NCBI RefSeq assembly: GCF_016863475.1
Contig: NZ_BOOY01000006.1
Location: 124,001 to 188,000, forward strand
Reading direction: 5' to 3'
From: Spirilliplanes yamanashiensis
GTDB taxonomy: Bacteria; Actinomycetota; Actinomycetes; Mycobacteriales; Micromonosporaceae
DNA: 64,000 nt
This document shows, in pieces, positions 4,598 through 20,389 of this stretch; position 1 is the stretch's first letter; each line of letters opens with the position of its first letter. The notes under the pieces were generated by a model. That model was not told where the DNA came from. It did no database searches and saw nothing but the letters and a program-made list of their open reading frames with translations. Position numbers and translations under genes: made by a program.

Positions 4598-5239
4598 CTA
4601 CAGCGTCACGGCCGCCACGAGCAGCCCGCGCGCGGCGAGCCAGCGGCCGTCGAACGCGGCCACCGGGCCCGGCCCGCCCTCGGGGCGCAGCCGGGCCCGG
4701 AACGTGCCCGCCGGGTCGATGGTGACGTGCGCCTCCGCGCAGCCCAGCCACCGGCCGGTCAGCGGCGACCACGCCTTGAAGACGGCCTCCTTGGCGCAGA
4801 ACAGCAGCCGGTCCCAGGGCACCCCGGGGTGCCCGTCGGCCAGCTCGCGCAGGTGCGGCTGCTCCTCGCCGGCGGAGGCGACCAGCGACAGCACGCCCGG
4901 CGGCAGCGGCTCGGCGGGCTCGGCGTCGATGCCGAGGGCGGTCAGGTCGGTGGCGCGCGCGACGGCGGCGGCCCGGTAGCCGTCGCAGTGGGTGAGGCTG
5001 CCGACGACGCCGGTGGGCCAGGCGGGGGCCCGCCCGGCGCCGCGCAGCACGGCGGCCGGGGGCAGCCCGAGCTGGGCCAGGGCCCGGCGGGCGCAGGCGC
5101 GGGTGGTGCCGAACTCGCGGACCCGGCGAGGCAGGGCGCCCGCGACGAGCGCCTCCTCGCCGGGGAACAGCGCGGCGGGCGCCTCGTCGTCGAAGGCCTC
5201 GGCCGCCGCGACGCCCGCCGGGAGGATCGCGGCGATCAT
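4598..5239 (-). CDS. 4'-Phosphopantetheinyl transferase, EntD/Sfp type
   Basis: A 213-residue enzyme that would transfer phosphopantetheine from CoA to carrier-protein serines. Signature motifs are present: SLTHCDGYRAAAVA, GIDAEP (the Mg-binding GIDVE motif) and FCAKEAVFKAWSPLTG (the WxxKEA helix). The ATG at 5239 overlaps the stop of the DUF1772 gene by 4 bp. Its position next to the cluster makes it the likely activator of the two discrete carrier proteins and the two NRPS thiolation domains, though it could also serve siderophore or lipid pathways elsewhere. Confidence 0.9.
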   Translation of the reverse strand: MIAAILPAGVAAAEAFDDEAPAALFPGEEALVAGALPRRVREFGTTRACARRALAQLGLPPAAVLRGAGRAPAWPTGVVGSLTHCDGYRAAAVARATDLTALGIDAEPAEPLPPGVLSLVASAGEEQPHLRELADGHPGVPWDRLLFCAKEAVFKAWSPLTGRWLGCAEAHVTIDPAGTFRARLRPEGGPGPVAAFDGRWLAARGLLVAAVTL

Positions 5240-5715
5240 GCGGTGACGAGGGCGGCGCCGAGGCAGGCGAACGCGGCGGTGTTGGTCAGCGCGCGGGCGA
5301 GGTTCCAGCGCACCCAGGGCGCCTCGAACGCGCGCCGGGCGGCGCCCGGGTCGTCGATGCGGGCGCCGGGGCCGGCGGCGTCGAGGCGGTTGTTGAGCGG
5401 GATGTTGACCCGGAAGGTGATGCCGAGCGTCCACACGTACAGCGCCAGGCCGGCGACGGTGAGCCCGAACGTCGTCCACGAGCCGATGTGCAGGGCGGCG
5501 GCGACGGCGGTGAGCAGGAACGCGCCGAAGAAGCTGAGCGCGAACCAGCCGTTCTGGATGGCGGCGTTGATGTGCTGCATGGCCGAGACGAACGCGCGGT
5601 CGTCGACCCGGCGCAGGCCCGGCATGACGGAGCACGCGTAGGTGTAGAAGAGGCCGGCGATGAGGCCCATGGCGATGGTGGCCGCGATCAGGACGGCGGT
5701 GCGGACGAGTTCCAC
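5236..5715 (-). CDS. DUF1772 membrane protein, second copy
   Basis: A 159-residue four-helix membrane protein, paralogous to the gene at 4053-4589 (shared SVMPGLRRVDDRAFVSAMQHINAAI pattern and the NIPLNNRLDAAG loop). The GTG start at 5715 has a GAGGAG ribosome site. It is translationally coupled to the downstream phosphopantetheinyl transferase by ATGA. It is divergently transcribed from the AraC regulator, which probably controls it. Confidence 0.8.
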   Translation of the reverse strand: MELVRTAVLIAATIAMGLIAGLFYTYACSVMPGLRRVDDRAFVSAMQHINAAIQNGWFALSFFGAFLLTAVAAALHIGSWTTFGLTVAGLALYVWTLGITFRVNIPLNNRLDAAGPGARIDDPGAARRAFEAPWVRWNLARALTNTAAFACLGAALVTA

Positions 5716-6950: not shown

Positions 6951-7697
6951 TCACGGCGCGGCCGCGACCGCCCCGACCGGCACGGGCGCGCCGACCGTCG
7001 CGGGCACCGTCCCGCGCCGCAGCGCGCGCACCGTGCGGGCCCAGGTGACCGGGTCGCCGTGGCGCAGCAGCGACGTGCCGACGAGCAGCCCCGCAAAGCC
7101 GTGGTCGAGCAGGCGCGCCGCCGTCTCCGGCCGGTCGATGCCGCTGGCGCTCACCGCGCAACGCGTGCCGGTCGCCAGCACCGCCGGCAGCAGCCGCAGG
7201 CTGCGCCCGAGGTCGCCGCCGTCGCGCTCCCGCGTCTTGATGTCCTTGTTGTTGACCGCCAGTACGCACTCGTCTGCGTGCGGCAGGCCGTCCAGCTCCG
7301 CCTCCGTCGTCACCTCGATGAACGGGGTCAGCCCCAGCAGCAGCGCCGCCGGCACCAGGCTGTGCAGGGCGGTGCGGGGCAGCAGCCCGGCGGTCAGCAG
7401 CACCGCCGACGCCCCCAGCTCCCGGGCGGTGCGCAGCTGGTCCCGGCGGGTGACGAAGTCCTTCTGCAGCAGCGGCCGGCGGGTGCGGCTCGCGACGTCG
7501 CGCAGCAGCTCCCGGGTGCCGCCGAACCACCGGCCGGTGACCACCGAGACGCACGGGGCGCCGGCCTGCTCGTACGCGGCCAGCACCGCCGGCACGGTGC
7601 GGCCCGCGAGCAGGTCCGCGCCGTGCGCGTCGCGGCACTTCACCTCCATGATCACGGGGTGCTCGGCGGCGAGCAGGGCCTCCACGAACGACGACAT
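6951..7697 (-). CDS. trpC: Divergent indole-3-glycerol-phosphate synthase (TrpC-like)
   Basis: A 248-residue TIM barrel of the IGPS family, which normally decarboxylates and cyclises CdRP to indole-3-glycerol phosphate. By eye, the catalytic Glu18 and Lys20 (MEVK), Lys79 (QKDF), Glu128 (IEV) and the Asn pair (NNKD) are kept. The usual SPS loop after the first motif is replaced by RDAHG. The SESG motif reads SASG (Ala184 for Glu), and NNRD reads NNKD. The N-terminus is about 30-40 residues shorter than usual, removing much of the segment that helps bind substrate. The start is firm: ATG with AGGAGGA 3-4 nt upstream. Last gene of operon A. It may use a substrate other than CdRP. Confidence 0.85.
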   Translation of the reverse strand: MSSFVEALLAAEHPVIMEVKCRDAHGADLLAGRTVPAVLAAYEQAGAPCVSVVTGRWFGGTRELLRDVASRTRRPLLQKDFVTRRDQLRTARELGASAVLLTAGLLPRTALHSLVPAALLLGLTPFIEVTTEAELDGLPHADECVLAVNNKDIKTRERDGGDLGRSLRLLPAVLATGTRCAVSASGIDRPETAARLLDHGFAGLLVGTSLLRHGDPVTWARTVRALRRGTVPATVGAPVPVGAVAAAP

Positions 7698-7726: not shown

Positions 7727-8413
7727 TCAGGACGGCGCCGGGGCCCCGATGCCCCAGCCGGCGGCGATCGCGGCGACCGCCGCCGGGTCGAACGCGCCGC
7801 CGGCGGCACGCGCCGCCGTGTCGACGTCGATGCCGGCGTAGCCGGGCAGGGCGGTGGCGGCGGCGTAGTCGCCCGCGTTGCCGGCGCCCAGGCCGCCCGC
7901 GAGCAGGAACGGCCGCGGCAGGCCGGTGGCGGCGCGCAGCACGTCGCCGGGGGCCAGGGCCACCCCGGTGCTGCCGACGCGGCCGTCCTCGGCCACCCGG
8001 TCGAGCAGGAACAGGTCGGTGCCCGCCCGCGTGTAGAACGGCACGAACCGGCTCTCCACGCAGGCGCCGTCGCGCAGGTGCAGCACCTTGACCACGACGG
8101 CGTCCGGCGCGGCCGCCTTGAGCGCGCGGACCACGCCCGGCGGCTGGTAGGCGTGCAGCTGCACCCACCGGATGCCGGTGCGGCGCAGCACGGCGGTCAG
8201 CGCCGCCACGTCGGCGAGGAACGTGACCAGCACCGGCTCGGCCGTGCCGGTGGCCCGCACGGCGTCCGCCAGCCGCGCGAGCCGGTCCGCGCTTAGCTCG
8301 GCCGGGCCGCCGGGCACGCCGTGCCACAGCCCGACCAGCCCGGCGCCCGCGCCGGCGAGCAGCGCGGGGTCGGCGTCGCGGGTCGCCCCGCAGACCTTCA
8401 GCAGCGGGCCCAT
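7727..8413 (-). CDS. trpF: Divergent phosphoribosylanthranilate isomerase (TrpF-like)
   Basis: A 228-residue TIM barrel of the TrpF family (Amadori rearrangement of a phosphoribosylamine). The catalytic Cys8 (KVCGAT) and Asp138 (LLDRV) are present, and VQLH is recognisable. The GGTG loop reads GSTG, and the phosphate-binding DVSSGVE motif reads DVDTAAR, so substrate contacts differ from housekeeping TrpF. The ATG at 8413 shares one base with the stop of the upstream dehydrogenase (TGATG). A 29-bp gap separates it from the trpC-like gene. Confidence 0.83.
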   Translation of the reverse strand: MGPLLKVCGATRDADPALLAGAGAGLVGLWHGVPGGPAELSADRLARLADAVRATGTAEPVLVTFLADVAALTAVLRRTGIRWVQLHAYQPPGVVRALKAAAPDAVVVKVLHLRDGACVESRFVPFYTRAGTDLFLLDRVAEDGRVGSTGVALAPGDVLRAATGLPRPFLLAGGLGAGNAGDYAAATALPGYAGIDVDTAARAAGGAFDPAAVAAIAAGWGIGAPAPS

Positions 8414-9552
8414 CACAGCCCCAGCAGCGCGGCGATGCGGTTGTACTGGATCTCGTTGCTGCCCGAGTAGATCGGCCCGGCGACCGCGTTGCGGACCTCC
8501 TTCTCCAGGCCGTACTCGGCCATGTAGCCGTTGCCGCCGAAGATCTGCACCGCGTCCAGGCTGCTCTGCAGGTTGGCGCGGCTGGTCAGCAGCTTGGCCA
8601 TCGCGATGTCCACGGTGGCCGCCTCGCCGCGCTGCACCTTGACGCCCGCGTCGTAGAGGAACTTGCGGGCCGTCTCGACGCCCACCTTCATGTCGACGAT
8701 CTTGTTGGCGACCGACTGGAACGACCCGATCGGCGAGCCGAACGCGGTGCGGCTGCGCGCGTACTCCACGCAGCGCTCCAGCCGGTGCTGCATCTCGCCG
8801 GTGTTGACGATGAACGAGTACAGGATCTCCCGCTTCATCACGTGGTCGAGCACGAGGAACCCGCCGCCGACCCGGCCGACCACCTGCGTGGCGGGCACCC
8901 GGCAGTCGTCGAGGAACACCTCGCTGAGCGGGGAGGTGCGCAGGCCCATCTTGTGGATCGGGTTGCCGACCGCAAGGCCGGGCGTGTCCTTCTCCACGAG
9001 GAAGGCGGTGACGCCCAGCGGGCCGCCCTCCGGCCGGGTCTTCGCGTAGATCATGAACAGGTCGGCGACGGGCGCGTTGCTGACGAACGTCTTGCCGCCG
9101 GTGAGCACGAAGTGGTCGCCGGCGCGCTCGGCGCGGGTCTGCATCGTCAGCGCGTCCGACCCGCCCTGCGGCTCGGTGATGGCGTGCGCGCCGATCGCCT
9201 CGCCGGAGCAGATCCGCGGCAGGAAGCGCTCCTTCAGCGCGGCGCTGCCGAAGCGGTCGAGCGGGACGCCGACGCTGCACAGCGACGTCGTCACCGAGAA
9301 GCTCAGGCCGCCGTCGCGGCAGCCCTGGCCGAGGCCCTCCAGCACGTACATGGTGGTGAGCAGATCCTGGCCCAGGCCCCCGTACCGCTCGTCGAACGGC
9401 AGGCCGAGGATTCCCGTGTCACTGATCAGCTTCCACTTGGCGGCGCTGAAGGCGCCCTCGGCGTCCTGCTCGACGTGGCCGGCGCTGAGCGCCTCGTCGA
9501 GCTCGGCGAGCCCCTGGCGCAACGCGATCTGGTCGGCGTCCCACTCGATCAT
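8413..9552 (-). CDS. Acyl-CoA-dehydrogenase-fold flavoprotein, PigA/RedW-like (carrier-bound aminoacyl dehydrogenase)
   Basis: A 379-residue flavoprotein with the complete acyl-CoA dehydrogenase fold (AITEPQGGSD, YARSRTAFGSPIGSFQ, IYSGSNEIQYNRIA). Its motifs resemble the prolyl-carrier dehydrogenases PigA/RedW/PltE (LGQGCRDGGLSFS; FVSNAPVADLFMIYAKT). Glu242 (KREIL) falls where isovaleryl-CoA dehydrogenase and PigA place the catalytic base. The likely role is to desaturate an aminoacyl thioester on the carrier protein at 11765-12031 that the AMP-ligase at 12028-13485 loads. With proline this would give pyrrole-2-carboxyl carrier, but the amino acid is not proven. It lies in an operon with an ectC-like gene and trp genes. 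Confidence 0.85.
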   Translation of the reverse strand: MIEWDADQIALRQGLAELDEALSAGHVEQDAEGAFSAAKWKLISDTGILGLPFDERYGGLGQDLLTTMYVLEGLGQGCRDGGLSFSVTTSLCSVGVPLDRFGSAALKERFLPRICSGEAIGAHAITEPQGGSDALTMQTRAERAGDHFVLTGGKTFVSNAPVADLFMIYAKTRPEGGPLGVTAFLVEKDTPGLAVGNPIHKMGLRTSPLSEVFLDDCRVPATQVVGRVGGGFLVLDHVMKREILYSFIVNTGEMQHRLERCVEYARSRTAFGSPIGSFQSVANKIVDMKVGVETARKFLYDAGVKVQRGEAATVDIAMAKLLTSRANLQSSLDAVQIFGGNGYMAEYGLEKEVRNAVAGPIYSGSNEIQYNRIAALLGL

Positions 9553-9563
9553 CGCGGCGGCCC

Positions 9564-9935
9564 TCAGTACGCCGAGGACGGCTGGTCGAGGTCGTGCACC
9601 TCGTCGCCGCGCAGCGCCGGCGAGAAGACGCAGACCAGGTTCAGGTCCTCGTCGGGGCCCGCGACCAGCCAGTGCGCCTCGTTCTCGCTCAGCGAGTACA
9701 TGACGCCCGGGGTGATCGGGTAGACGGTGCCGTCGTCCATGATGACCTCGCCGGAGCCGGCGATGCAGTAGCAGCTCTCCAGGTGGTTGCGGTACTCCAG
9801 CCGGGACTTCGTGCCGGCCCGGACGGTGGTGTCCGTGAGGGAGTAGCCGACCCCGTCGGCGGCGACCAGGAAGCGGCGGCTCAGGCCGTTGCCCCAGTCG
9901 ACGGTCTTCGCCTCGGTCAGGTTGCGGACGATCAT
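9564..9935 (-). CDS. ectC: Ectoine-synthase-like cupin cyclase (solitary)
   Basis: A 123-residue protein alignable end to end with ectoine synthase, starting with the family hallmark MIVRNL. EctC is an iron cupin that cyclises N-gamma-acetyl-diaminobutyrate by water loss. The three metal ligands of the family appear conserved: Glu53 (NHLES), Tyr80 (MYSL) and His88 (AHWL). The C-terminal EVHD motif is also present. No ectA, ectB or ectD gene is nearby, and the gene is embedded between trpA-like and dehydrogenase genes, with ATGA overlap to trpA. A housekeeping osmolyte role is therefore unlikely; cyclisation of a pathway intermediate is the better inference. Strong GAGGAGG site before the ATG. 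Confidence 0.9.
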   Translation of the reverse strand: MIVRNLTEAKTVDWGNGLSRRFLVAADGVGYSLTDTTVRAGTKSRLEYRNHLESCYCIAGSGEVIMDDGTVYPITPGVMYSLSENEAHWLVAGPDEDLNLVCVFSPALRGDEVHDLDQPSSAY

Positions 9936-10732
9936 GATGCCCTCCTCGGGGTGGTGACGGGGTGGATCTCCGCGACGAAGTCGCGCAGCCGCGCGACGAC
10001 GTCGTGGCCTCGGTCGAGCGCCTGCTCGATGCGGGCGACGCCGGCGGAGCCGACGATCGCCGCGTGCGCGCCGGCGGCGTGGATCGCCGCGACGTCGGCG
10101 CGGGTCTTGACGCCGAACCCGACGGCGACGGGCGCGGCGGTGCGCTCCCGCAGCCGGGCGATCGAGCCGGCCAGGTCGGCGTAGCCGGCGGCGGGCGCGG
10201 TGCCGCTGCGGCCGTAGTGGGCGACGAGGTAGACGTAGGCGGAGGCGCCGGCCGCCGCGGCGGCGAGCGACTCCGCGGACCGGCCGTGGTAGCAGGTGGT
10301 GACCACGGGCAGGCGGGCCTGCCGCGCGGCGTCGTGGTACTGCTCGCCGAGCCGGGGCGGCAGGGCGTGCACGAGCAGCCCGTCGACGCCGGCGTCGGCG
10401 ATGCGGGCCACCGCCTCCGGCAGCGGGCGGCCCTTCAGGCTGTGGCTCCAGTCGGCCAGCAGCGCGATCCGCAGCCGGCGCAGCCGCGGGCGGACCCGGG
10501 CCACGAAGGCGAGCGTCTCGGTCAGGCCGACGCCCTGGGCCAGGGCGCGGTCGGCGGAGCGGCGCACCACCGGCCCGTCGGTGACCGAGCCGGGGAACGG
10601 CACGGCCAGCTCCAGGCAGTCCACCCCGGCCTCGTCGAGCATGTCGACGAGGCCGTCGAGGACGTCCAGCGGCGGGTCGCCCGCGTTGACGAACAGCGCG
10701 AGGCCGCCCGGCGACGGGAAGAACTCAGCCAC
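9932..10732 (-). CDS. trpA: Tryptophan synthase alpha-subunit-like protein (TrpA-like)
   Basis: A 266-residue TIM barrel of the TrpA family, which splits indole-3-glycerol phosphate into indole and glyceraldehyde 3-phosphate. The two acid residues needed for this, Glu41 (LELAVPF) and Asp52 (VTDGP), are present at the usual spacing. The later loop SRAGVTG reads AHYGRSG; GFGV and the phosphate motif GSAGVA are kept. GTG start at 10732, overlapping trpD by 8 bp. The partner beta subunit would be the TrpB2-like protein at 48152, although TrpB2 enzymes usually lack the TrpA-contact surface, so this protein may work alone as a lyase. Confidence 0.83.
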   Translation of the reverse strand: MAEFFPSPGGLALFVNAGDPPLDVLDGLVDMLDEAGVDCLELAVPFPGSVTDGPVVRRSADRALAQGVGLTETLAFVARVRPRLRRLRIALLADWSHSLKGRPLPEAVARIADAGVDGLLVHALPPRLGEQYHDAARQARLPVVTTCYHGRSAESLAAAAAGASAYVYLVAHYGRSGTAPAAGYADLAGSIARLRERTAAPVAVGFGVKTRADVAAIHAAGAHAAIVGSAGVARIEQALDRGHDVVARLRDFVAEIHPVTTPRRAS

Positions 10733-11762
10733 GCTGCACCGCCAGGGGGACCGGCCGCACGCTGCGCATGCTCTCCGCGAGCCGGCGCGGGGCGCCGTCG
10801 CGGACCGCGTCGTGCGCCGCCGCCACCGCGGCCGCCCAGTCCGTGGCGTGCCCGCCCGCCACGGCCAGCGCGGCCGCGTTGAGGCACACCGCGTCGGTGG
10901 CGACCGGGTTGCCGACGCCGGACAGCACGCCGAGGAAGTGCTCGACGAGCCCCGCCGGGTCGGTGATCGGGGCCAGGTCGGCGACGTCGCCGCCGCTGGT
11001 GGTGAACCGCCCCGGCCACAGCTCCACGTCGGGCGAGCCGTCGTTGGGGTAGATGACGTTGTCGGCGAAGCCGAGCAGCTCGTCCGCGCCGACGTCGTTG
11101 GCGACCAGCCACAGCGGCCGGTCCGGCAGCGACGCGGCGAGCCGGCGCAGCACCCCGAGCGGGGCCTGCGCCGACACGCCGGTCACCTGGGCGGTGACGG
11201 GCACCGACGCGAGCAGCGGACCCGTCGCGTTCAGGAACCGGCCGAACGCGCGCATGCTCAGCGGCAGGATCTGCCGGGCGAGCCGGGTGAGCGCCGCCGG
11301 GTAGACGTACGGGCCGGCGAAGGCGATGCCGTGCCGGGCCAGCACGTCGCCGGTCTGGGAGTGCGAGCGGGTGAGTCCGATGCCGAGCCGGTCCAGCAGG
11401 TCGATCGACCCGTAGCTGCTGGTGTAGGCCCGGGACCCGGTCTTGACGACCGGGACCCCCATGGCGGCGGCGACGAACGCCGCCGCCGTGGACACGTTGA
11501 AGCTCTTCGGGCCGCCGCCGGTCCCGACGATGTTGACGGCCCCCGGCCACCGGTGCGGTGCGGCCGGGCGCCGCTCGTCGAGCGACAGCAGCAGGTTGCG
11601 CAGGGTCTCGGGCCCGGGCAGCCGGGTCGCGAGGCTGGTGAGCAGGGCGACGGCGTCGCCCTTGTCGAGGGCGCCGGCGTCCAGCTCGTCCCAGAGCGAG
11701 CGCCAGGCGGCCCGGCCGACCTCGGTGCGGGCGTCGATGAGCGCGGCGATGACCTCGTGCAC
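10725..11762 (-). CDS. trpD: Divergent anthranilate phosphoribosyltransferase (TrpD-like)
   Basis: A 345-residue type-3 phosphoribosyltransferase. Several PRPP/Mg motifs are recognisable: GTGGG at 80-84 (canonical GTGGD), NVST at 89-92 and the downstream Asp-Glu pair (GADELL). Residues that contact the amine differ: the canonical KHGN reads KTGS at 107-110, and the RTxFNLLGPL segment reads GRFLNATGPL, moving or losing the anthranilate-binding Arg. It therefore probably still uses PRPP but may phosphoribosylate a different amine. GTG start 2 bp after the carrier-protein stop. Confidence 0.83.
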   Translation of the reverse strand: MHEVIAALIDARTEVGRAAWRSLWDELDAGALDKGDAVALLTSLATRLPGPETLRNLLLSLDERRPAAPHRWPGAVNIVGTGGGPKSFNVSTAAAFVAAAMGVPVVKTGSRAYTSSYGSIDLLDRLGIGLTRSHSQTGDVLARHGIAFAGPYVYPAALTRLARQILPLSMRAFGRFLNATGPLLASVPVTAQVTGVSAQAPLGVLRRLAASLPDRPLWLVANDVGADELLGFADNVIYPNDGSPDVELWPGRFTTSGGDVADLAPITDPAGLVEHFLGVLSGVGNPVATDAVCLNAAALAVAGGHATDWAAAVAAAHDAVRDGAPRRLAESMRSVRPVPLAVQRG

Positions 11763-11764
11763 GG

Positions 11765-12031
11765 CTATCCGCCCGCGACCGCGGTGGCCCTGGTGGCGTT
11801 GCCGACGAACGTGTCGATCGCGGCGACGCTGCGGAAGTTCTCCGGGTCCAGGGCGGTGTCGTCCACCAGCAGCTCGAAGTGGTCCTCCAGCCAGGCGATC
11901 AGCTTGAGCAGGCCGAGGCTGTCGATGACGCCGGAGCCGAGCAGGTCGGCGTCGGCGTCGAGCTCGGCCGCCGTGACGTCCGGGAGGAACTCCTCGATGA
12001 CGAAGCGCTTGATCGTGTCGGTGTTGTTCAT
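11765..12031 (-). CDS. Discrete peptidyl/acyl carrier protein
   Basis: An 88-residue carrier protein with the phosphopantetheine site GVIDSLG (Ser38) and the usual acidic four-helix pattern. It is coupled by ATGA to the AMP-ligase upstream, so it is the probable acceptor of that ligase's aminoacyl group and the substrate platform for the PigA/RedW-like dehydrogenase. AGGAAG lies just before the ATG at 12031. Confidence 0.92.
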   Translation of the reverse strand: MNNTDTIKRFVIEEFLPDVTAAELDADADLLGSGVIDSLGLLKLIAWLEDHFELLVDDTALDPENFRSVAAIDTFVGNATRATAVAGG

Positions 12032-13485
12032 GACTTCCTCTCTTCGGCGGCGACCGGCTCGGCGAGCCGGCCGACGGCGGTGCGGTCGACCTTTCCGGTG
12101 GACGTCCGGGGCAGCGGGTCGTCGACGATCCGCAGGACGGACGGGATGGCGGCCCGGGGCAGGCGCCCGGCACAGTGCTGCCGCAGGGTGAGGCTGTTGA
12201 TCCGGCTGGCGGGGCGCCGCCGCACCGTGGACAGCAGGCGGTGCCCGGCGACCGGGTCCGGCCCGGCCACGACGGCGGCCTCGACGATGTCGGGGTGGGC
12301 GAGCAGGATGCGCTCGATCTCGGCGGTGTTGACGGCGACGCCGCGGATCTTGACCTGGAAGTCGCTGCGCCCGATCAGGAGCAGCCGGCCCGCCGCGTCG
12401 CGCCGCACCAGGTCGCCGGTGCGGTACCACGGCTCGGCGTCCAGGCCGCGCGGGTCGGTGGTGAAGCGCTCGGCGGTGCGCGCCGGGTCGAGGTAGCCGG
12501 GGGTCTGGAACGGGGTGCGGACGTACAGCTCGCCCTCGCCCGGTCCGTCGAGGACCGCGCCGGCGGCGTCCACCACGGCCGCGGCGACGCCGGGCAGCGG
12601 CCGGCCGATGGGCACGGGCGTCCCCTCGGCCGGGTCGATCTCGTGGACGAAGCTGTCGTTGGTCTCGGTGCAGCCGTAGACGTTGTGCAGCCGCGCGCCG
12701 GGGAACAGCGCGGGCAGCCCGGCCAGGGTGCGCTCGGCCACGGCGTCGCCGGTGACCATCGCGTGCCGCACCGCGCCGAACGTCTCGCCGGTCTCCTGCA
12801 GCAGGCCGAACGCCATCGGCACCGCCTGCACGACGGCGACGTCGTGGCGGGTCAGCAGGCCGGCCAGGTGGCGGCCCTGGGTGGCCCGCTCCGGGTCGAC
12901 CAGCACCACCGCGCCGCCGTGGGCGAGCGTCGCCCACACGTCGAGCAGGCACAGGTCGAAGTTCAGCGGGGCGTAGTTCAGGACGGCACGGCCCGGCCCG
13001 AGGCCGAACGCGTCGCCCGCCCAGGCGGCGAAGCGGCGCATCGCGCCGGCCGGCACCGGCACGACCTTCGGCAGGCCGGTGGAGCCGGACGTGGTGAGCA
13101 GCATCGCCGTGCCGGCGGGCACGACCGGCGGGCCGGGCGTGACGGTGCGAGTGTCGCCGACGCCCAGCACGTACCGGCAGCCGGCCTGCTCCGCCAGGGC
13201 GGTCAGGGTCTGCTCGGGCAGTGCGGGCGACGGCAGCAGCACCGGCCGCCGGGTGATCAGGCAGCCGAGCACCAGGGCGATCGCGGCGGGCGACTTGGCC
13301 GCCACCACCGCCACCGGCTCGTCGCGGCCCAGGTCCAGCCCGGCCAGCCGGTTCGCCGCGCGCAGGGCGCTCGCGTGCAGTTCGGCGTAGCTGACCGTCT
13401 CGTCGTGCCAGTGCAGCGCCGGGGCGTGCGGGCGGGTCAGGGCGTGCCGGACGAGGGCGGCGGCGAGGTCGAGGCGGTCAGCCAT
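12028..13485 (-). CDS. Stand-alone amino-acid AMP-ligase (adenylation enzyme)
   Basis: A 485-residue ANL-superfamily adenylating enzyme, close to a free A domain. A3 is LLTTSGSTGLPKVVP, A5 is VYGCTETNDSF, A7 is YRTGDLV, and A10 keeps the catalytic Lys (STGKVD). A by-eye read of the specificity pocket gives D-L-L-Q-M-T-V-D-S-K, which I cannot assign to an amino acid. Operon position next to a carrier protein and an aminoacyl-carrier dehydrogenase suggests a RedM/PltF-like role, with proline or another small amino acid as substrate. The ATG at 13485 overlaps the MaoC gene by 8 bp; a GTG 9 bp further upstream is possible. Confidence 0.88.
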   Translation of the reverse strand: MADRLDLAAALVRHALTRPHAPALHWHDETVSYAELHASALRAANRLAGLDLGRDEPVAVVAAKSPAAIALVLGCLITRRPVLLPSPALPEQTLTALAEQAGCRYVLGVGDTRTVTPGPPVVPAGTAMLLTTSGSTGLPKVVPVPAGAMRRFAAWAGDAFGLGPGRAVLNYAPLNFDLCLLDVWATLAHGGAVVLVDPERATQGRHLAGLLTRHDVAVVQAVPMAFGLLQETGETFGAVRHAMVTGDAVAERTLAGLPALFPGARLHNVYGCTETNDSFVHEIDPAEGTPVPIGRPLPGVAAAVVDAAGAVLDGPGEGELYVRTPFQTPGYLDPARTAERFTTDPRGLDAEPWYRTGDLVRRDAAGRLLLIGRSDFQVKIRGVAVNTAEIERILLAHPDIVEAAVVAGPDPVAGHRLLSTVRRRPASRINSLTLRQHCAGRLPRAAIPSVLRIVDDPLPRTSTGKVDRTAVGRLAEPVAAEERKS

Positions 13486-14278
13486 CGTCGCCACCCGGGC
13501 GCACCCGGACCCAGCCGCCCTTGAGGGCGATGCCGGTCGGCGTCCGGCAGGTGAAGGTGACCGTGCCGGCCTCGGCGCCCGGCTGGAGCACCACGGCGAG
13601 CGGCTCGCCGGGCAGCACCGGCGACGTGAACCGGCAGCCGATCCCGGCGATGCGGGCCGCGTCGCCGCCGGCGAAGGCGTCGGTGACCTCCTCGCAGACC
13701 AGCGCCAGCACGCTCATGCCGTGCGCGATGACGCCGGGGAAGCCGGCCGCCGCGCCCGCCGCGTCGTCGAGGTGGATGGGGTTGTGGTCGCCGGACGCGT
13801 CCGCGTAGGCGCGGACGGTGTCCCGGGTGAGCGTGCGGGTGACGGTCACCGGCGCCGCGGCGCGGTCGGCGGCGGCCGTGGCGGCCGCCGGGACGTCGCC
13901 GAACGGCTCGGGGCCGGTCGCGCCGACGAGCAGCACCGCCGTCTCCAGCCGGGCGATCGGGTCGCCGGCCTCGCCGGTCAGCTCGGTGCGCAGCGCCAGC
14001 CGCACGCCGCGCGGCTCGCGCCGGGCGGCCACGACGTCGAGCGCGATGCGCACCTGTTCGCCGGTGCGCACCAGGCGGGTCACGTGGACCTCCTGGCTGA
14101 GGTGCACCGGGGTGCCGTCGCCGGCCACGACCGCGTCGAAGGCGGCGGTGCTCAGCACGAACGGGTGCAGCGGGGACGCCTGCGCCGAGCCGGGCAGGCT
14201 GAGCGGCGCGCGGGCCGCCGCGCGGTAGACCGAGACGTCGGGCACCACGACGGCGCCGGGAACGATGGCGGTGGTCAT
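13478..14278 (-). CDS. MaoC-like (hot-dog) dehydratase/hydratase
   Basis: A 266-residue double hot-dog protein. The C-terminal half carries the R-specific enoyl hydratase motif (ASGDHNPIHLDDAAG followed by GFPGVIAHGM) with catalytic Asp and His. The N-terminal half is the degenerate repeat. In a cluster with ketosynthases and a FabG-like reductase it would dehydrate a beta-hydroxyacyl-ACP, completing a reducing type II cycle; no enoyl reductase gene is seen. Coupled to the ketosynthase by ATGA. Confidence 0.87.
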   Translation of the reverse strand: MTTAIVPGAVVVPDVSVYRAAARAPLSLPGSAQASPLHPFVLSTAAFDAVVAGDGTPVHLSQEVHVTRLVRTGEQVRIALDVVAARREPRGVRLALRTELTGEAGDPIARLETAVLLVGATGPEPFGDVPAAATAAADRAAAPVTVTRTLTRDTVRAYADASGDHNPIHLDDAAGAAAGFPGVIAHGMSVLALVCEEVTDAFAGGDAARIAGIGCRFTSPVLPGEPLAVVLQPGAEAGTVTFTCRTPTGIALKGGWVRVRPGGDDG

Positions 14279-15489
14279 GCCGGGATCACCACCAGGCAGG
14301 CGTTGTGGCCGCCGAAGCCGAAGGAGTTGGACAGCGCGGGGCCGCTCGCGATCGCGCGGGGCGCGCCGTGGACGACGTCGAGATCCATGCCGGGTTCCGT
14401 CCGTTCGTGGTTGGCGGTGGGCGGTACGACGCCCTCGCGCACGGCGAGGGTGGTGGCGAGCAGTTCCAGCGCGCCGGCGGCCCCGATGAGGTGGCCGGTG
14501 ACGCCCTTGGTGGACGTGACCGGCACGGCGCCGCCGCCGAAGACCTTGCGCAGCGCGGCCGCCTCGACCCGGTCGTTGTGCGGGGTGGACGTCCCGTGGG
14601 CGTTGACGTGCGCGATGTCGGCGGGCTGCAGGCCGGCGTCGGCGAGCGCCGCGGTCATGGCGGCGACCGCGCCCGCGCCGTCCTCCGGCGGCGCCGACAG
14701 GTGGTGGGCGTCGGCGGTGGCGCCGTAGCCGGCGACGACGCCGTGCACCCGGGCGCCGCGGGCGCGGGCGTCGGCGAGGCGTTCCAGGACCACGAAGGCG
14801 GCGCCCTCGCCCATGACGAAGCCGTCGCGGCCGGCGTCGAACGGCCGGGACGCGCGGGCCGGGTCGTCGTTGCGGGCGCTGACGGCGCCGAGGCTCGCGA
14901 ACGCGGCCATCGTGACGGGGCTGATGATGGCCTCGCAGCCGCCCGCCAGCACCACGTCGGCGCGTCCCGTCTCCAGCAGCAGCATCGCCTGGCCGATCGC
15001 GTCGGCGCTGGACGCGCACGTGGTGGCGATCGTGGTGGCCGGGCCGTGCCAGCCGAGCCGCATGGAGATCAGTGCCGCCGCGGCGTTGGGCATGGTGAGC
15101 AGCGGCATGAGCGGGTTGACGCCCTTCGGCCCGCGCTCGGCGTAGTTCAGCGACTCGGCGTCGCTGGTGACCCGGCCGCCGACCGCGTTGCCGACGACGA
15201 CCGCCGCGCGGCCCGGGTCGGTGACCGGGGTGCCCGCGTCGGCGAGCGCCCGGACGGCGGCCGTCACGCCGAACCGCGCGAACGGGTCCATCCGCCGGGC
15301 CTCCTTGGCGGACAGCACGTCGCCGGGTAGCTCCGGCACCCGGCAGGCGATGCGCACCGGGTGCCGGGCGAACTCGTCGCCGGTCAGCAGCTCGGCGCGC
15401 GACCGCCCGGCCAGCAGCGTCTCGAAGAGGGTGTCCGGCGTGCTGCCGGCGGGGGAGACCACCCCCATCCCGGTGATCGCGGCGCCCAT
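14275..15489 (-). CDS. Beta-ketoacyl-ACP synthase II (FabF-type ketosynthase)
   Basis: A 404-residue condensing enzyme with an intact Cys-His-His site: Cys158 in TTCASS, His in NAHGTST and His in TKGVTGHLIGAAG. The C-terminus has NSFGFGGHN. It would extend an acyl or aminoacyl thioester with malonyl-ACP. Neighbours (carrier protein, AMP-ligase, oxoamine synthase) resemble the RedX/PigJ setting in prodiginine pathways, where a ketosynthase elongates a pyrrolyl starter. No malonyl transferase gene is present in the window, so one from fatty-acid synthesis is presumably borrowed. Confidence 0.92.
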   Translation of the reverse strand: MGAAITGMGVVSPAGSTPDTLFETLLAGRSRAELLTGDEFARHPVRIACRVPELPGDVLSAKEARRMDPFARFGVTAAVRALADAGTPVTDPGRAAVVVGNAVGGRVTSDAESLNYAERGPKGVNPLMPLLTMPNAAAALISMRLGWHGPATTIATTCASSADAIGQAMLLLETGRADVVLAGGCEAIISPVTMAAFASLGAVSARNDDPARASRPFDAGRDGFVMGEGAAFVVLERLADARARGARVHGVVAGYGATADAHHLSAPPEDGAGAVAAMTAALADAGLQPADIAHVNAHGTSTPHNDRVEAAALRKVFGGGAVPVTSTKGVTGHLIGAAGALELLATTLAVREGVVPPTANHERTEPGMDLDVVHGAPRAIASGPALSNSFGFGGHNACLVVIPA

Positions 15490-15491
15490 GG

Positions 15492-16721
15492 TCAGACCGC
15501 CGCCGTCGCCGGGATGAGCCGGCACTCGCGGGCCGCCTCCAGCAGCGCCTGCCCGGCGAACTCGATGTCGGCCTCGGAGTGCCGCGCGGTGACCGCGATC
15601 CGCAGCCGGGCCAAAGTGTTCGGCACGGCGGGCGAGACGACCGGCAGGCCGATGATCCCGGCGCGGCGGCAGGCGGTGGCGTAGTCGTACGCCTGCTCGT
15701 CGGTGCCGGCCACGACCGGGACGACGGCGGTCTCGCTGGCCAGCGTCCGCATGCCCGCCTCGGTGAGCACCGCGCGCAGCTTCGCCGACTGGTCCTGGAT
15801 GTGCGCGACCCGCCAGGGCTCCCGGTCGAGGATGCGCAGCGCCTCGAGGGCGGCGCCGACCTGGGCGGGGGCGAGCGCGGCCGAGAACAGGAACGGCCGG
15901 GCGTGGTAGCGCAGGTGCCGGATCAGGTCGGGGGAGCCGACGACCCAGCCGCCCATCGACGGGATGCCCTTGGACAGGGTGCCGAGCTTGACGTCGACGT
16001 GGACGGTGTCGTCGAAGTGCTCCTCGATGCCGCGGCCGGTGCGCCCGATGACGCCCAGCGCGTGCGCCTCGTCGACCATCAGCAGCGCGTTGTGCGCGTC
16101 GCAGACCTCGCGCAGCTCGGGCAGCGGGGCGATGTCGCCGTCCATCGAGTACACGCTGTCGACGACGACCAGCCGGACGCCGTCCGGCGAGGCGGCGCGC
16201 AGCCGCTGGTCGAGGTGGTTCGGGTCGTTGTGCCGGAACCGGGTGACGGTGGCGCCGCTGAGCTTGCAGCCGTCGACGATGCTCGCGTGGTCGTACTTGT
16301 CGATGAAGACGGTGTCGCCGGGGCCGCACAGGGCGCCGATGGTGCCGACGTTCGCGGCGTAGCCGGAGCCGAACACCAGCGCGGACTCGCGGCCGAGGAA
16401 GCGGGCGACCTCCGCCTCCAGCTCCTCGTGCAGCGGGGTGGAGCCGGCCAGCGCCCGCACGCCGTGGGCGCCGGTGCCGTACTGCTCGACGGCCGCCTTG
16501 GCCGCGGCGACGACCCGCTCGTCCCCGCCGAGCCCGCAGTAGCTGTAGCCGGACATCATCAGGTACTTGCGGCCCTCCAGCTCCACCTGGGCGCTGTGCC
16601 GGTCGATCCCGTACGGGACGAAGCTGTTCTTGCGGCTCGGGTCCGACTCGAGTGCGTCGATCCGCCGGCGGGTCGCCTCGAGCTTCGGCGCCACGCGCCG
16701 CCATGCTTCCGATGCCTTCAC
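15492..16721 (-). CDS. Alpha-oxoamine synthase (PLP-dependent)
   Basis: A 409-residue PLP enzyme of the KBL/BioF/HemA family, which condenses an amino acid with an acyl thioester under decarboxylation to give an alpha-amino ketone. Visible motifs are the SGYSYCGLGG substrate loop, VDEAHALG (Asp217, His220) and the PLP lysine Lys251 in GTLSKGIPSMGG. The GTG at 16721 is preferred because GAGGGGA lies in front of it and the length then fits the family; the longer frame adds Cys/Arg-rich residues that cover the promoter. In prodiginine pathways such an enzyme joins serine to a pyrrolyl-beta-ketothioester. First gene of operon A. Confidence 0.92.
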   Translation of the reverse strand: MKASEAWRRVAPKLEATRRRIDALESDPSRKNSFVPYGIDRHSAQVELEGRKYLMMSGYSYCGLGGDERVVAAAKAAVEQYGTGAHGVRALAGSTPLHEELEAEVARFLGRESALVFGSGYAANVGTIGALCGPGDTVFIDKYDHASIVDGCKLSGATVTRFRHNDPNHLDQRLRAASPDGVRLVVVDSVYSMDGDIAPLPELREVCDAHNALLMVDEAHALGVIGRTGRGIEEHFDDTVHVDVKLGTLSKGIPSMGGWVVGSPDLIRHLRYHARPFLFSAALAPAQVGAALEALRILDREPWRVAHIQDQSAKLRAVLTEAGMRTLASETAVVPVVAGTDEQAYDYATACRRAGIIGLPVVSPAVPNTLARLRIAVTARHSEADIEFAGQALLEAARECRLIPATAAV

Positions 16722-17059
16722 GTCCGTCCCCTCTTCCACTGGTTGGTCCGTCGGCTTTTTGCTGAGGGCAGTTCTACGGGCGGCACCGCAAGCCGGGCGC
16801 AACACGTGGGACGCGACGCTTGCGGAGGCAGCGCGCCATTCGACGCGGCAAACGTGATCTGCGTCATAGCTGTCCACTGCGGACCGGAAATGGCGCCGGG
16901 AGGGCCACGAATTGGCAGGTCACAATGGCAATACACAGTGTTATATCGATTGTCGTCACTGACAGGAATTGTTCACCGCTCAGCCCTTGCCCACGGCGCA
17001 TCCGTGGCGGGTATCGTCCGCAGCGCTGAGTGATCAACCGATGACGAGGGTCCAGGCCT
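16722..17059. promoter_or_regulatory. Divergent control region, oxoamine-synthase operon / SARP gene
   Basis: 338 bp with no gene. It contains the heptamer pair at 16786-16803, a -10-like TAGAAC on the minus strand at 16771-16776, and an AT-rich patch around 16918-16970 (with TTATAT at 16941-16946). A 6-bp inverted repeat CCACGG/CCGTGG at 16991-17007 lies just before the SARP start. The AT-rich patch is the likely SARP promoter; no exact hexamers are claimed there. Confidence 0.55.
16771..16803 (-). promoter_or_regulatory. Predicted SARP box and -10 of operon A
   Basis: On the minus strand the heptamers GTTGCGC (16803-16797) and CTTGCGG (16792-16786) repeat with an 11-bp pitch. They are followed 9 bp later by TAGAAC (16776-16771), a plausible -10. 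SARP regulators are known to bind heptamer direct repeats at 11-bp pitch about 8 bp upstream of the -10. The predicted transcript would start near 16764, about 43 nt before the oxoamine synthase GTG. Confidence 0.65.
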
Positions 17060-20000
17060 GTGCTGATCAAGCTCGCCGGTCCGGTCGGCCTGGAGCAGCC
17101 CGGCCGGCCGCCCCGGCACCTGTCCAGCGCGCAGGCGCAGGTGGCCTTCGCCCGGCTGGTCGTCGAGCGCGCCCACGGGACCGGGCGCGACGAACTCGCC
17201 GACACCGTCTGGCCGGACGGGCTGCCCGACACCTGGGCCTCCGCCCTGCGCAGCGTCGTCAGCCGGGTCCGGGCCTTCGTCACGGAGCAGGACGCCGCGG
17301 AGGACGCGCTCGTCGCGCAGGGCGGGCGCTACCTGCTGCGGCTGCCCGCCGACGTCACCGTCGACATCGAACAGGCCGAGGCGGCCGTCGGGCGCGCCGC
17401 CGAGGCGTACGCGGCGCAGGCGTTCGCCGACGCGGGCCGGTTCGCCGCGGACGCCGTCGCCTGCCTGGAACGGCCGTTCCTGCCGGAGAGCGCGGGCGGC
17501 TGGGTCACCGAGACCCGCGAGCGCCTGCTGGAGCTGCTGGTCACCGGGCTGGAGACCGCCGGGCTGGCCGCCTGCGCCACCGGCGACGACCGGGCCGCCC
17601 TGCGCTTCGCCGACAGCGCCGTGCGCCGGGCGCCGCTGCGGGAGAGCGCGCACCGCACGCTGATGGCCGCGCACGTCGCCGCCGGCAACCGGGCGCAGGC
17701 GCTGGGCGCCTACCACGACCTGCGCCGGGTGCTCGCCGACGAGCTGGGCGTCGACCCGGCGCCCGAGACCCAGGCCGTCTACCTCGACCTGCTCGGCGGC
17801 CCGGCCGCGCCCGTACTGCCCGCGCCCCGCCGCGGCCGGCGGGCGACGGCCGCGCCGTTCGTCGGCCGGGGCGCCGAGCTGGCCCGGCTGGCGGAGTGCT
17901 GGGAGCACGCCGGGCGCGGCGACACCCACGTCGTGCTGATCGCGGGCGAGCCCGGCATCGGCAAGACCCGGCTGGCCACCGCGGCGGCCCGGCGGGTCGG
18001 CGGCGCCGGCGGCACGGTCCTGCACGGCCGCGGCGACGCGGCGGCGCGGGAGCCGTACCAGCCGCTGCTCGACGCGGTGCGCGGGTTCCTCGCCGCCGCG
18101 GGCGACGACGCCGGGGGCGAGGCGCTGCGGGCCGGCCGCGCCGCCCTGGCCGCCCCCGCCGAGGACACCCTCGCCGCCGCGCTGGCCGCCGCCGCCCGCG
18201 ACCGGCCGGTGCTGCTGCTCCTCGACGACCTGCACGCCGCCGGGGAGGCCGCCCTGCGGCTGGTCCGCGACGCCGTCGCCCGCCGCGACGGCGCCCGGCT
18301 GCTCGTCGTGGCCACCGCGCCCGCGCCCGGGCCGTGGCCCGACCCGTTCGCCGCGACCGTCCGCGACCTCGACCGGGAGGGCTGGCTCACCCGGATCACC
18401 CTCACCGGCCTGGGCGAGACCGACGCCGTCGCGCTGGCCCGCGACGTCGTGCCGGACGGCGCGTTCGGCCGGGTGCCGCCCGCCCACCGCCTCGTCGCCG
18501 ACACCGCCGGCAACCCGCACCTGCTGCTGGAGGTGCTGCGCGCGGTCGCCGCCGGGCCCGGCGACCGGGGCGAGCCCGCCCCGCGGGTCCCGCGCGGCGT
18601 CGGCGAGCACCTCACCGCCCGGCTGGCCGGCCTCGACCACGCGCCCCGCCAGCTGCTCACCGCCGCCGCCGTCGCCGGGCCCGTCTTCGAGCTGGACGTC
18701 ACCGCCGACGCCGCCGAGCTGGAACCCGACCGGGCCATGGACTGCCTGGAGACGCTGGTCGCCGCCGGCCTGGTGCGCGAGGCGCCCGGCGAGGGCGGCT
18801 ACCGCTTCACCCACGACCTGCTGCGCCGGGCCCTGTACGAGCGGGCCACCGAGGACCGCCGCCGGTTCCTGCACACCCGGCTCGCCGACGCCATCGAGCA
18901 GCGCCGGGCCGGGCGGATCGGCCCGTACAGCGAGGCGCTGGCCCGGCACTGGGCCGCCGGCGCCACCCCGCACGGCGACCAGCGGGCGGTGCGCTGGGGC
19001 TGGCGGGCCGCGGTGCGGCTGGCCGAGGAGGGCGCCCTCGACGAGGCGGTCCGGCTGCACCGGCAGGCGCTGGACCACGTGCCGGCCGCGGACGCCGAGA
19101 TGCGCGGCGAGGCGCAGACCAACCTGGGGCTCGCCCAGCTGCACGCCGGCCACCCCGGCAGCGCGCAGACCCTGTTCGACGGCGCGCTGCAGGCCCTGCA
19201 CAGCGGGCGGCTGGGCGTCGCGGCGCAGGCCGCCATCGGCCTGGCGGGCGCCGTGCGCGACGAGCCCGCGCTGCGCAGCGAGGCCGCCGCCGTCGTGTCC
19301 ACCCTGCTCGACCGCGTCACCGGCGGCGACCCGGGCGACCCGGGAGACCTCGGCGTCGTCGACGACCTCACCCTCGGCCGGCTGCTGGCCCGGCACGTCG
19401 CCCTCGGCGGCGTGGTCGCCGAGCGCACCCGGGCCACCGCGGCGGCCATGCAGGCCGTGGTGCGGGAGCTGTCCCAGCTGGAGGGCCCCGACCACGCCGA
19501 GCGGCGGGCCGTGCTCGCCGACGACGCCGCCGCCCTGGCCGCGGAGCTCGGCGACGGCCGGGCCCAGCTGCTCGCCGCGCACCACCGGGCGATGGCGGCC
19601 GAGACGGTCGGCGACTGCCCCGCCCGGGAACGCGCCCTGGCCGCCCTGGGCGCGGCCGTGCGCGCCGCCGGCGACGACCCGGTCGGCGACGCCCTGATCC
19701 TGGAGCACCGGGTCGCCACCGCGGTCGCGCACGGCCGGTTCGCCGACGCCGAGGAGACGGCCCGCCGCGCCGGCGACGGCGGTGCGGGCGGCGCCGGCAT
19801 CTTCCCCGCCCCCGGCACGATGGCCGGGCGGCAGATGCATGTTGCGGCGTGGTTGCGCGCCATGACGTGGACCGACCCGGGCCGGCGGCGCCCCGACATC
19901 GCCCAGGCCGTGGAGCAGTCGCTCGCCACCCTGCTGGCCGGCGAGCGCGGGCTGCCCCACCTGACCGTGCGGGCGCTGGCCACCGGGGCGCAGCCGCTGC

Positions 20001-20389
20001 CGCCCGGCGACGAGTGGCTGCACGTCGGCGGGCTGCTCGGGCTGGGCGCCGTCGAGCTGGGCGACCGCACCACCGCCGAGGCGCTGCGCGAGCTGTTCGC
20101 CCCGTACGCCGACCTGAACTGCGGGGTCGGCTACCGCAGCTACGTCGGGCCGATGGCGTTCCACCTCGGCCGGCTGTCGGTGGTGGTGGGGGACTGGTCG
20201 GCGGCCGAGCGGCACCTGACGGCGGCGCTGGCGATGCTGGGCGAGCGCGGGGCGCAGCCGTGGATCGCGCTGGCGCTGCGCTCGCTCGCCGACGCGCTGC
20301 AGGGCCGGGACCGAGCGGGCGACCGGGCGTCGGCGGCGGCGCTGCGCGCGGAGGCCGCCACGACCCTGACGAGCCTCGGCATCCGCTGA
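17060..20389 (+). CDS. SARP-family regulator with NB-ARC/AAA ATPase region (AfsR-like, large)
   Basis: A 1109-residue transcriptional activator. The N-terminus (1-90) is an OmpR-like winged helix (LADTVWPDGLPDTWASALRSVVSRVRAFV). Residues about 95-245 form the bacterial transcriptional activation domain (ALGAYHDLRRVLADELGVDPAPETQAVY). A STAND-type ATPase follows, with Walker A GEPGIGKT near 296 and Walker B LLLLDDLHAA near 385. The remaining 500 residues look like helical repeats. GTG start at 17060 with GAGGG upstream. It is divergent to operon A, and matching heptamer repeats stand before operons A, B and C, so it is the probable pathway-specific activator. Confidence 0.9.
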   Translation: MLIKLAGPVGLEQPGRPPRHLSSAQAQVAFARLVVERAHGTGRDELADTVWPDGLPDTWASALRSVVSRVRAFVTEQDAAEDALVAQGGRYLLRLPADVTVDIEQAEAAVGRAAEAYAAQAFADAGRFAADAVACLERPFLPESAGGWVTETRERLLELLVTGLETAGLAACATGDDRAALRFADSAVRRAPLRESAHRTLMAAHVAAGNRAQALGAYHDLRRVLADELGVDPAPETQAVYLDLLGGPAAPVLPAPRRGRRATAAPFVGRGAELARLAECWEHAGRGDTHVVLIAGEPGIGKTRLATAAARRVGGAGGTVLHGRGDAAAREPYQPLLDAVRGFLAAAGDDAGGEALRAGRAALAAPAEDTLAAALAAAARDRPVLLLLDDLHAAGEAALRLVRDAVARRDGARLLVVATAPAPGPWPDPFAATVRDLDREGWLTRITLTGLGETDAVALARDVVPDGAFGRVPPAHRLVADTAGNPHLLLEVLRAVAAGPGDRGEPAPRVPRGVGEHLTARLAGLDHAPRQLLTAAAVAGPVFELDVTADAAELEPDRAMDCLETLVAAGLVREAPGEGGYRFTHDLLRRALYERATEDRRRFLHTRLADAIEQRRAGRIGPYSEALARHWAAGATPHGDQRAVRWGWRAAVRLAEEGALDEAVRLHRQALDHVPAADAEMRGEAQTNLGLAQLHAGHPGSAQTLFDGALQALHSGRLGVAAQAAIGLAGAVRDEPALRSEAAAVVSTLLDRVTGGDPGDPGDLGVVDDLTLGRLLARHVALGGVVAERTRATAAAMQAVVRELSQLEGPDHAERRAVLADDAAALAAELGDGRAQLLAAHHRAMAAETVGDCPARERALAALGAAVRAAGDDPVGDALILEHRVATAVAHGRFADAEETARRAGDGGAGGAGIFPAPGTMAGRQMHVAAWLRAMTWTDPGRRRPDIAQAVEQSLATLLAGERGLPHLTVRALATGAQPLPPGDEWLHVGGLLGLGAVELGDRTTAEALRELFAPYADLNCGVGYRSYVGPMAFHLGRLSVVVGDWSAAERHLTAALAMLGERGAQPWIALALRSLADALQGRDRAGDRASAAALRAEAATTLTSLGIR

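Follow-up and report, generated by a model that had tools for sequence, protein, structure and literature searches.

Carrier-bound pyrrole-2-carboxylate is made from proline by modules of a proline-specific adenylation (A) enzyme, a peptidyl carrier protein (PCP), and a prolyl-PCP dehydrogenase, among which we take PltF/PltE, RedM/RedW, and PigI/PigA to be examples. In the showdomycin pathway, 2-amino-1H-pyrrole-5-carboxylic acid was reportedly identified by Ren et al. in 2021. As given in passages of PMC8724604, the proposed showdomycin pathway starts with cyclization of free Gln by the cyclase SdmE to an amino-pyrroline, followed by nonribosomal peptide synthetase (NRPS)-type loading on a PCP by SdmC and SdmD, oxidation, hydrolysis, and C-glycosylation, with SdmA and SdmB placed after the hydrolysis. 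Ectoine synthase (EctC) is also described as acting on Gln: according to passages of PMC5924519, it converts Gln weakly to the cyclic amidine 5-amino-3,4-dihydro-2H-pyrrole-2-carboxylate (ADPC), with the equilibrium on the Gln side. For P. lautus EctC, passages of PMC6344544 list the iron ligands and give Trp21 and Asn38 roles as substrate ligands, with Asn38 on the carboxylate; in some orphan EctC proteins, the same passages have the Trp shifted by two residues and call the ligands mostly conserved. The function of orphan EctC is described as unresolved in passages of both PMC5924519 and PMC6344544.

The locus studied here carries such an orphan. In the window (the whole stretch of 64,000 nucleotides that was analyzed), positions 9564-9935 of the minus strand hold an ATG-started, intact ORF of 123 aa from the EctC family, with scores of 135.2 bits against the ectoine synthase profile NF009806 (cut-off 128) and 124.6 bits against PF06339 (cut-off 27). 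The nearest solved structures are the ectoine synthases 5onn, 5ono, and 5onm (E ~1e-29). By alignment, Glu53, Tyr80, and His88 correspond to Glu57, Tyr84, and His92 of P. lautus EctC, the iron ligands listed in a passage of PMC6344544, and their conservation, claimed in an earlier note on this DNA, is thereby borne out. That note had also described EctC as lacking EctA and EctB nearby, which turned out to be true of the whole genome: profile searches of the entire assembly (99.96% complete) returned the window EctC as the single PF06339 match, zero matches to EctA, and none to EctB over the cut-off of 552 (four matches, best 166 bits). The gene shares 4 bp with the trpA-like gene (9932-10732), and a spacer of 11 bp separates it from the dehydrogenase gene (8413-9552), in agreement with the spacing reported before, and the conservation of gene order in other genomes supports the earlier view of EctC as a bona fide operon member. 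Because its partners match the proposed showdomycin chemistry, we consider EctC to be probably a Gln cyclase derived from the ectoine-synthase fold and working in an aminopyrrole module.

The minus-strand operon reads, in the order of transcription, alpha-oxoamine synthase, FabF-like ketosynthase, MaoC, A enzyme, acyl carrier protein (ACP), TrpD, TrpA, EctC, an acyl-CoA-dehydrogenase-fold oxidase (ACAD), TrpF, and TrpC, with gaps of at most 29 bp and frequent overlaps between neighbors. TrpE, TrpG, and TrpB were not found among the operon genes. Operon and flanking features are as follows.

4598-5239, minus: 4'-phosphopantetheinyl transferase; possible cluster member
5236-5715, minus: small membrane protein, DUF1772 according to a relative's annotation; possible cluster member
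6951-7697, minus: TrpC (IGPS) paralogue; Glu/Lys/Lys/Glu/Asn/Ser kept, Glu210 equivalent is Ala
7727-8413, minus: TrpF paralogue with its catalytic Cys and Asp
8413-9552, minus: ACAD oxidase, nearest 4irn; predicted to convert the cyclic amidine to a 2-aminopyrrole
9564-9935, minus: EctC-family cyclase of the S-x-Y clade with a WGNG motif; predicted to convert Gln to ADPC
9932-10732, minus: TrpA paralogue with Glu49 and Asp60 retained; 140.6 bits against a cut-off of 102.35
10725-11762, minus: TrpD paralogue that retains the PRPP/Mg motifs and has other residues in place of the anthranilate-site motifs
11765-12031, minus: carrier protein (acyl or peptidyl) with DSLG as its phosphopantetheine-type site; annotated as phosphopantetheine-binding at the same place in a relative
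12028-13485, minus: free-standing A enzyme, specificity residues D-L-L-Q-M-T-V-D-S; pocket region nearest 6o6e
13478-14278, minus: MaoC-type dehydratase
14275-15489, minus: FabF-like ketosynthase
15492-16877, minus: alpha-oxoamine synthase (BioF/Kbl family); start codon probably further in, near 16694-16730
17060-20389, plus: divergent regulator, SARP-type by reading; annotated there as "bacterial transcriptional activator domain" in a relative
21784-22536, minus: SDR ketoreductase; likely same cluster
22533-23519, minus: KAS III; likely same cluster
23523-23777, minus: 84-aa protein, carrier-like by reading, with no family match; likely same cluster

The 84-aa protein, KAS III, and SDR genes beyond the regulator have the same arrangement in an annotated relative on a Streptomyces plasmid. 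Farther along the window, positions 29222-34762 (plus strand) encode an NRPS of 1846 aa with two A domains, one condensation, two carrier, and one thioesterase domain, and an MFS transporter gene comes after it. The A enzyme, the carrier, the oxidase resembling prolyl-carrier dehydrogenases, and the TrpD/F/C/A set had all been missed as partners in the earlier note, and the rebuilt acceptor site of TrpD, described below, is the more surprising feature.

We then compared the EctC pocket with that of canonical enzymes. The window protein shares with them the cupin family, the iron ligands, and Ser23, Arg25, Thr40, Tyr52, Cys104, and Phe106 but differs in having Gly at the place of Trp21 (a Trp precedes it by three residues) and Thr in place of Asn38, in lacking EctA and EctB, and in belonging to a separate clade. 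A comparison with crystal structures, suggested in the earlier note, thus upheld the iron site and revealed an altered substrate pocket. For a wider view, EctC rows with identical sequence were merged (112 to 77) and aligned with the window protein. The iron ligands were present in all 78 rows, and 54 rows (the window protein among them, and one with S-x-F) had a C-terminal S-x-Y ending, which is not an independent finding because the clade label was built on the S-x-Y/F ending itself. The pocket changes are independent of that label. Gly stood at the Trp21 place in 54/54 clade rows, and Asn38 was replaced in every one, by Thr (31), Ala (13), or Cys (10); the upstream-shifted Trp was found in 52 of the 54, with Tyr in L051 and Arg in L093. 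Another 22 of the 78 rows had Trp21 and His or Asn at position 38 without the S-x-Y ending, and two fell in neither group. In the tree, the 54 clade rows formed one side of a branch with support of 100/99, apart from the ectABC enzymes. Four genomes of one family (G729, G620, G691, and G567) encode an S-x-Y-type EctC together with a second EctC that has the canonical residues, and the two of these four canonical-residue copies whose contexts were scanned lie within ectABCD (L126) and beside ectB (L124). The Ser-x-Tyr terminus of the window protein is encoded at 9567-9575 and marks the group with Gly for Trp21 and no Asn38.

These comparisons bear on whether EctC could make ectoine or an ectoine-like solute or be a relic, a reading that would fit its family membership and intact iron ligands and the formation of ectoine by an orphan EctC of Pseudomonas syringae in a Halomonas ectC mutant (a passage of PMC5924519). 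We regard it as very improbable, given the missing EctA and EctB, the clade and pocket that differ from those of ectABC enzymes, and an operon placement conserved across families. Ectoine or osmolyte synthesis was accordingly rejected on the first two of these grounds (no EctA/EctB, separate EctC clade).

To place the operon among relatives, we searched other genomes with the window EctC. Matches occurred in 67 of 354 genomes of its own family (E <=0.001, a set that includes canonical EctC and a few weak cupins), in 97 of 394 genomes of the class (E <=1e-15, canonical EctC included), and elsewhere in 16 loci of genome_contigs and 119 plasmid records (again with canonical EctC). The loci most similar to the window EctC were taken, and L120 was left out as a duplicate of L047; their contexts were scanned with profiles built from these same clusters, so that the shares given here are not population frequencies. 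A plus ACAD stood beside an S-x-Y-type EctC in 34 of the 47 loci with context, and an ACP was detected in 33 of these 34 core loci, window included, the exception being L062. Since every locus was found via EctC, A-ACP-ACAD sets without EctC are invisible in this survey.

All four Trp genes were present in 21 of the 34 core loci, window included, and the remaining 13 had no Trp gene at all. In each of the 21, the order was A, ACP, TrpD, TrpA, EctC, ACAD, TrpF, TrpC, with an extra ACAD further on in L052. The search for a common gene order that the earlier note had proposed was thus positive, with TrpA-EctC-ACAD recurring in all 21 of these loci. Oxoamine synthase, ketosynthase, and MaoC accompanied the set in 13/21. 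These Trp loci range over Streptomyces, Actinophytocola, Nocardiopsis, Arthrobacter, the window's own family, and other members of the class. Ten of the 47 loci lacked the core as well as Trp genes (L047, L048, L049, L051, L069, L070, L117, L121, L122, and L123), and three were partial: L038 lies at a contig edge, and only ACP, TrpD, and EctC were seen in L042 and L044. The S-x-Y clade is therefore not confined to the aminopyrrole module. In the two Streptomyces loci L042 (8649-10375) and L044, ACP, TrpD, and EctC occur with no cluster-type A, ACAD, TrpA, TrpF, or TrpC within 10 kb.

The core enzymes resemble the proline-derived modules up to a point. Over the pocket region, the A enzyme is nearest to the solved chain 6o6e, an L-proline--[L-prolyl-carrier protein] ligase that we take to be PltF, and the nearest solved structure to ACAD is the prolyl-ACP dehydrogenase 4irn (313 bits). 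Unlike those modules, the operon adds an EctC-type cyclase, and six of the nine residues of its A pocket are different, DLLQMTVDS against DLLYLALVC in 6o6e, with Gln278, Thr301, Asp330, and Ser331 gained (in what we assume to be GrsA numbering). The pocket was D-L-(L/F)-Q-x-T-(V/I/L)-D-S in 33/33 readable core loci, whether or not Trp genes were present; in the core locus L118, the A gene is in pieces and the pocket unreadable. A pocket of one type throughout points to one shared substrate. The added polar residues, above all the invariant Asp, would suit an amidine-bearing prolyl-like ring or glutamine. ACAD scored 372 bits against the curated PigA profile and 371 bits against RedW, under the cut-offs of 500 and 650, and the Glu taken as its catalytic base was kept in 35/35 copies. 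A plain pyrrole derived from proline, as at the start of prodiginine-like pathways, was set aside on the ground that the pocket was not of proline type in any of the 33 readable core loci; the presence of EctC is no argument against it because the loci were found via EctC.

The showdomycin system offers a closer parallel. Compared by the pathway described in passages of PMC8724604 rather than by sdm sequences, the window operon likewise has an A enzyme, a carrier, a cyclase, and an oxidase, and it differs in carrying Trp paralogues, oxoamine synthase, ketosynthase, and MaoC instead of a C-glycosynthase. The C-glycosynthase family PF04227 had no match in the window's first 30 kb, and the only match in the genome lies on another contig. 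In four loci, genes for PsuG/Indigoidine_A and a HAD phosphatase are joined to the core (L063, by Pfam; L064, L066, and L067, by profile), and from these showdomycin-like loci, we infer that SdmE is EctC-like. As the predicted core chemistry matches and the PsuG/HAD loci follow the showdomycin layout, we read A-ACP-EctC-ACAD as a portable aminopyrrole module. The earlier note had proposed a new use of the EctC fold as a cyclase or dehydratase in natural-product assembly. The part concerning a natural-product cyclase rather than ectoine synthesis is supported by the conserved order and the distinct clade, but the claim of novelty holds only in part, as Gln cyclization is a known weak side reaction of EctC and the first step, by SdmE, of the proposed showdomycin pathway (passages of PMC5924519 and PMC8724604). 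Gln cyclization would thus be familiar chemistry placed in a new context, and the newer part is the Trp set. At least one large group of orphan EctC proteins thereby gains a concrete predicted job, as amidine-forming cyclases of specialized metabolism, and an annotation as ectoine synthase should not be equated with ectoine production.

In the proposed pathway, the iron of EctC would activate the side-chain amide of Gln for attack by the alpha-amine, and loss of water would give the five-membered cyclic amidine ADPC. The A enzyme would then activate ADPC and load it on the ACP, a step that would pull the unfavorable cyclization forward, and ACAD would remove two hydrogens to give 2-amino-1H-pyrrole-5-carboxyl-S-ACP. 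The same module could also run in the other order, with A loading Gln on the ACP and EctC cyclizing glutaminyl-S-ACP. This is possible, if somewhat doubtful: loss of Asn38 and Gly at the Trp21 place throughout the clade are what a thioester substrate would lead one to expect, and ACP directly precedes EctC in most non-Trp core operons, but the invariant Asp330 of the A pocket would suit an amidinium better than an amide, the showdomycin proposal cyclizes free Gln first (a passage of PMC8724604), and canonical EctC takes free Gln (a passage of PMC5924519). A thioester on the carrier would accommodate the loss of Asn38 no worse than free Gln would, and this loss favors cyclization after loading; Asp330 and the showdomycin proposal favor cyclization before it. 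Our preference is for cyclization followed by loading. The TrpD/F/C/A paralogues, together with oxoamine synthase, ketosynthase, and MaoC, would subsequently work the aminopyrrole into a specialized metabolite.

The four Trp paralogues keep nearly all of the catalytic residues checked. Cluster TrpF has Cys7 and Asp126 and cluster TrpA has Glu49 and Asp60, in 22/22 copies each; cluster TrpC has the catalytic Glu/Lys/Lys/Glu/Ser in 22/22 and the Asn in 20/22, with Glu210 replaced by Ala in all 22 (residue numbers as we assume them for these catalytic sites). Cluster TrpD retains the PRPP/Mg motifs GTGG, NxST, and DE in 23/23 copies. What sets it apart from the tryptophan branch TrpD-TrpF-TrpC-TrpA is the acceptor site, presumably marked by the anthranilate-site motifs KHGNR, HHP, an Arg pair before E-LG, and LTNP. 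These are present in 4hkm and, with FHP for HHP, in the housekeeping TrpD of this genome. The cluster copies instead have K(S/T)G(S/A)R for KHGNR and VYPx for VHHP, with no Arg at the RRE-LG Arg pair and no LTNP (23/23). Also unlike the branch, the operon has no TrpE, TrpG, or TrpB, window TrpD scored 129.5 bits against a curated-profile cut-off of 199.05, and window TrpF and TrpC fell below their curated NCBIfam cut-offs (TrpF lying above that of Pfam). With catalytic residues kept and the anthranilate-site motifs of TrpD lost, the Trp chemistry seems to have been retained and the acceptor changed.

As the predicted product of the same operon, the aminopyrrole is the obvious acceptor for TrpD. 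We tentatively propose, as an idea whose chances fall a little short of even, that the Trp set has been re-aimed and annulates the aminopyrrole. TrpD would phosphoribosylate the exocyclic amine of the 2-aminopyrrole in place of anthranilate, TrpF would make the Amadori ketone, and TrpC would close the chain on the free pyrrole carbon with loss of water but not of CO2. TrpA would then cut off glyceraldehyde-3-phosphate to leave a 1,6-dihydropyrrolo[2,3-b]pyrrole-2-carboxyl unit, which the ketosynthase and oxoamine synthase would extend. As part of this tentative proposal, the aminopyrrole would be a hub diversified in three ways: by Trp-style annulation, by TrpB-like alanylation, and by C-ribosylation. 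One residue speaks against annulation: TrpC retains a Lys that we take to be the binder of the anthranilate carboxylate, and the aminopyrrole would have no carboxylate at that place. The paralogues may act on an amine other than the aminopyrrole.

The retained Lys would fit a reading in which the Trp paralogues act on anthranilate to give ordinary indole, which is later joined to the aminopyrrole unit. All four anthranilate-to-indole enzymes are indeed present with their catalytic residues nearly complete, and the window contains a TrpE/PabB-family gene at 44407-45990 (minus strand). That gene, however, lies about 28 kb from the operon, and its product is 52% identical to SgcD, the 2-amino-4-deoxychorismate synthase of an enediyne cluster and the nearest among the matches listed; the 24 kb of annotation flanking a relative's operon includes no anthranilate synthase gene; separate housekeeping TrpD, TrpA, TrpC, and TrpE are encoded elsewhere in the genome; and the anthranilate-site motifs kept by that housekeeping TrpD are gone from every cluster copy. 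We therefore consider indole formation unlikely. The TrpE-family gene was rejected as a local anthranilate synthase on account of its closeness to SgcD. Among 40 of 310 TrpE-like matches, an EctC-Trp operon was seen in one record, NBC_01351, about 90 kb away. The gene at 44407-45990 stands near an FMN reductase gene and an AMP-ligase-like gene and probably belongs to a second, chorismate-using cluster.

TrpD might instead serve as a glycosyltransferase and attach ribose to the aminopyrrole as an N- or C-riboside, giving a nucleoside like that expected from PsuG in the showdomycin-like clusters; TrpF, TrpC, and TrpA would then have a job other than annulation. The kept PRPP motifs, the two Streptomyces loci with TrpD but no TrpF, TrpC, or TrpA within 10 kb, and the PsuG genes of sister clusters are all compatible with a riboside. 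We nevertheless think it quite unlikely, in view of the 21 loci in which all four Trp enzymes occur in fixed order with catalytic residues kept and of the alphaproteobacterial locus L140, where TrpD is kept with TrpC.

Were annulation to prove true, the enzymes of a primary-metabolism pathway (Trp) would have been redirected together toward a new aromatic amine, leading to an unexplored heterocycle, and EctC plus TrpD would be a marker for mining further such clusters. We know of no natural product with the 1,6-dihydropyrrolo[2,3-b]pyrrole ring. In the open-licence literature, we found no report of an EctC/ACAD aminopyrrole module with a re-specified TrpD/F/C/A set, and a search there on EctC in natural-product clusters, carrier-bound 2-aminopyrrole, and the bicyclic ring gave no report of this operon among the papers listed.

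A related operon (L128) is present on pSCL4 of the laboratory strain S. clavuligerus ATCC 27064, where trpD matched in two pieces. The core also occurs with other partners. A transglutaminase-like gene was found in 11 of the 13 non-Trp core loci (absent from L061, a contig of 3.4 kb, and from L062) against 1 of the 21 Trp loci; S. xanthii, outside this set, is the second case of a Trp cluster with such a gene. The transglutaminase-like protein (e.g., L063:16990-17682) is perhaps a hydrolase that frees the aminopyrrole from the carrier and is dispensable before the Trp set. Three core loci (L056, L057, and L065) contain a TrpB-like gene, and the two that were scanned scored 554.5 and 565.4 bits against TIGR01415 (cut-off 518.85). 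Our reading is that TrpB would be a second Trp-type enzyme recruited to the aminopyrrole hub. The genes at L056:12113-13477 and L065:6623-7993 lie in A-ACP-EctC-ACAD-transglutaminase operons, where synthesis of an aminopyrrolyl-alanine is possible. L140, on an Aliiroseovarius plasmid, brings together transglutaminase, EctC, two ketosynthase-like proteins, ACAD, A, ACP, TrpD, and TrpC; its A pocket is DLLHLAIDT, with Asp330 kept, and its annotation includes no TrpF or TrpA.

Further EctC contexts were seen in passing. An orphan EctC gene lies directly upstream of an NRPS gene in Mycetohabitans and of a type I PKS gene with an A domain in Rhizobium gallicum (L130:8001-16375 and L132:8001-16178), and the first A domains of the two have the common motif YGSTEVQDV. 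In two genera (L048:10001-14084, by Pfam; L049:10001-13973, by profile), a same-clade EctC is followed by nucleoside-deoxyribosyltransferase-like, dihydroorotate-dehydrogenase-like, creatininase, and ATP-grasp genes. A cyanobacterial EctC with the WGNG motif (L131:8001-8378) is found near genes annotated as GNAT acetyltransferase, tryptophan 7-halogenase, and HpaB. Finally, a PF04199 cyclase heads Trp-type operons without oxoamine synthase in L058, L059, and L060 (e.g., L059:5500-6306), and the one scanned, that of L059, is weakly arylformamidase-like.
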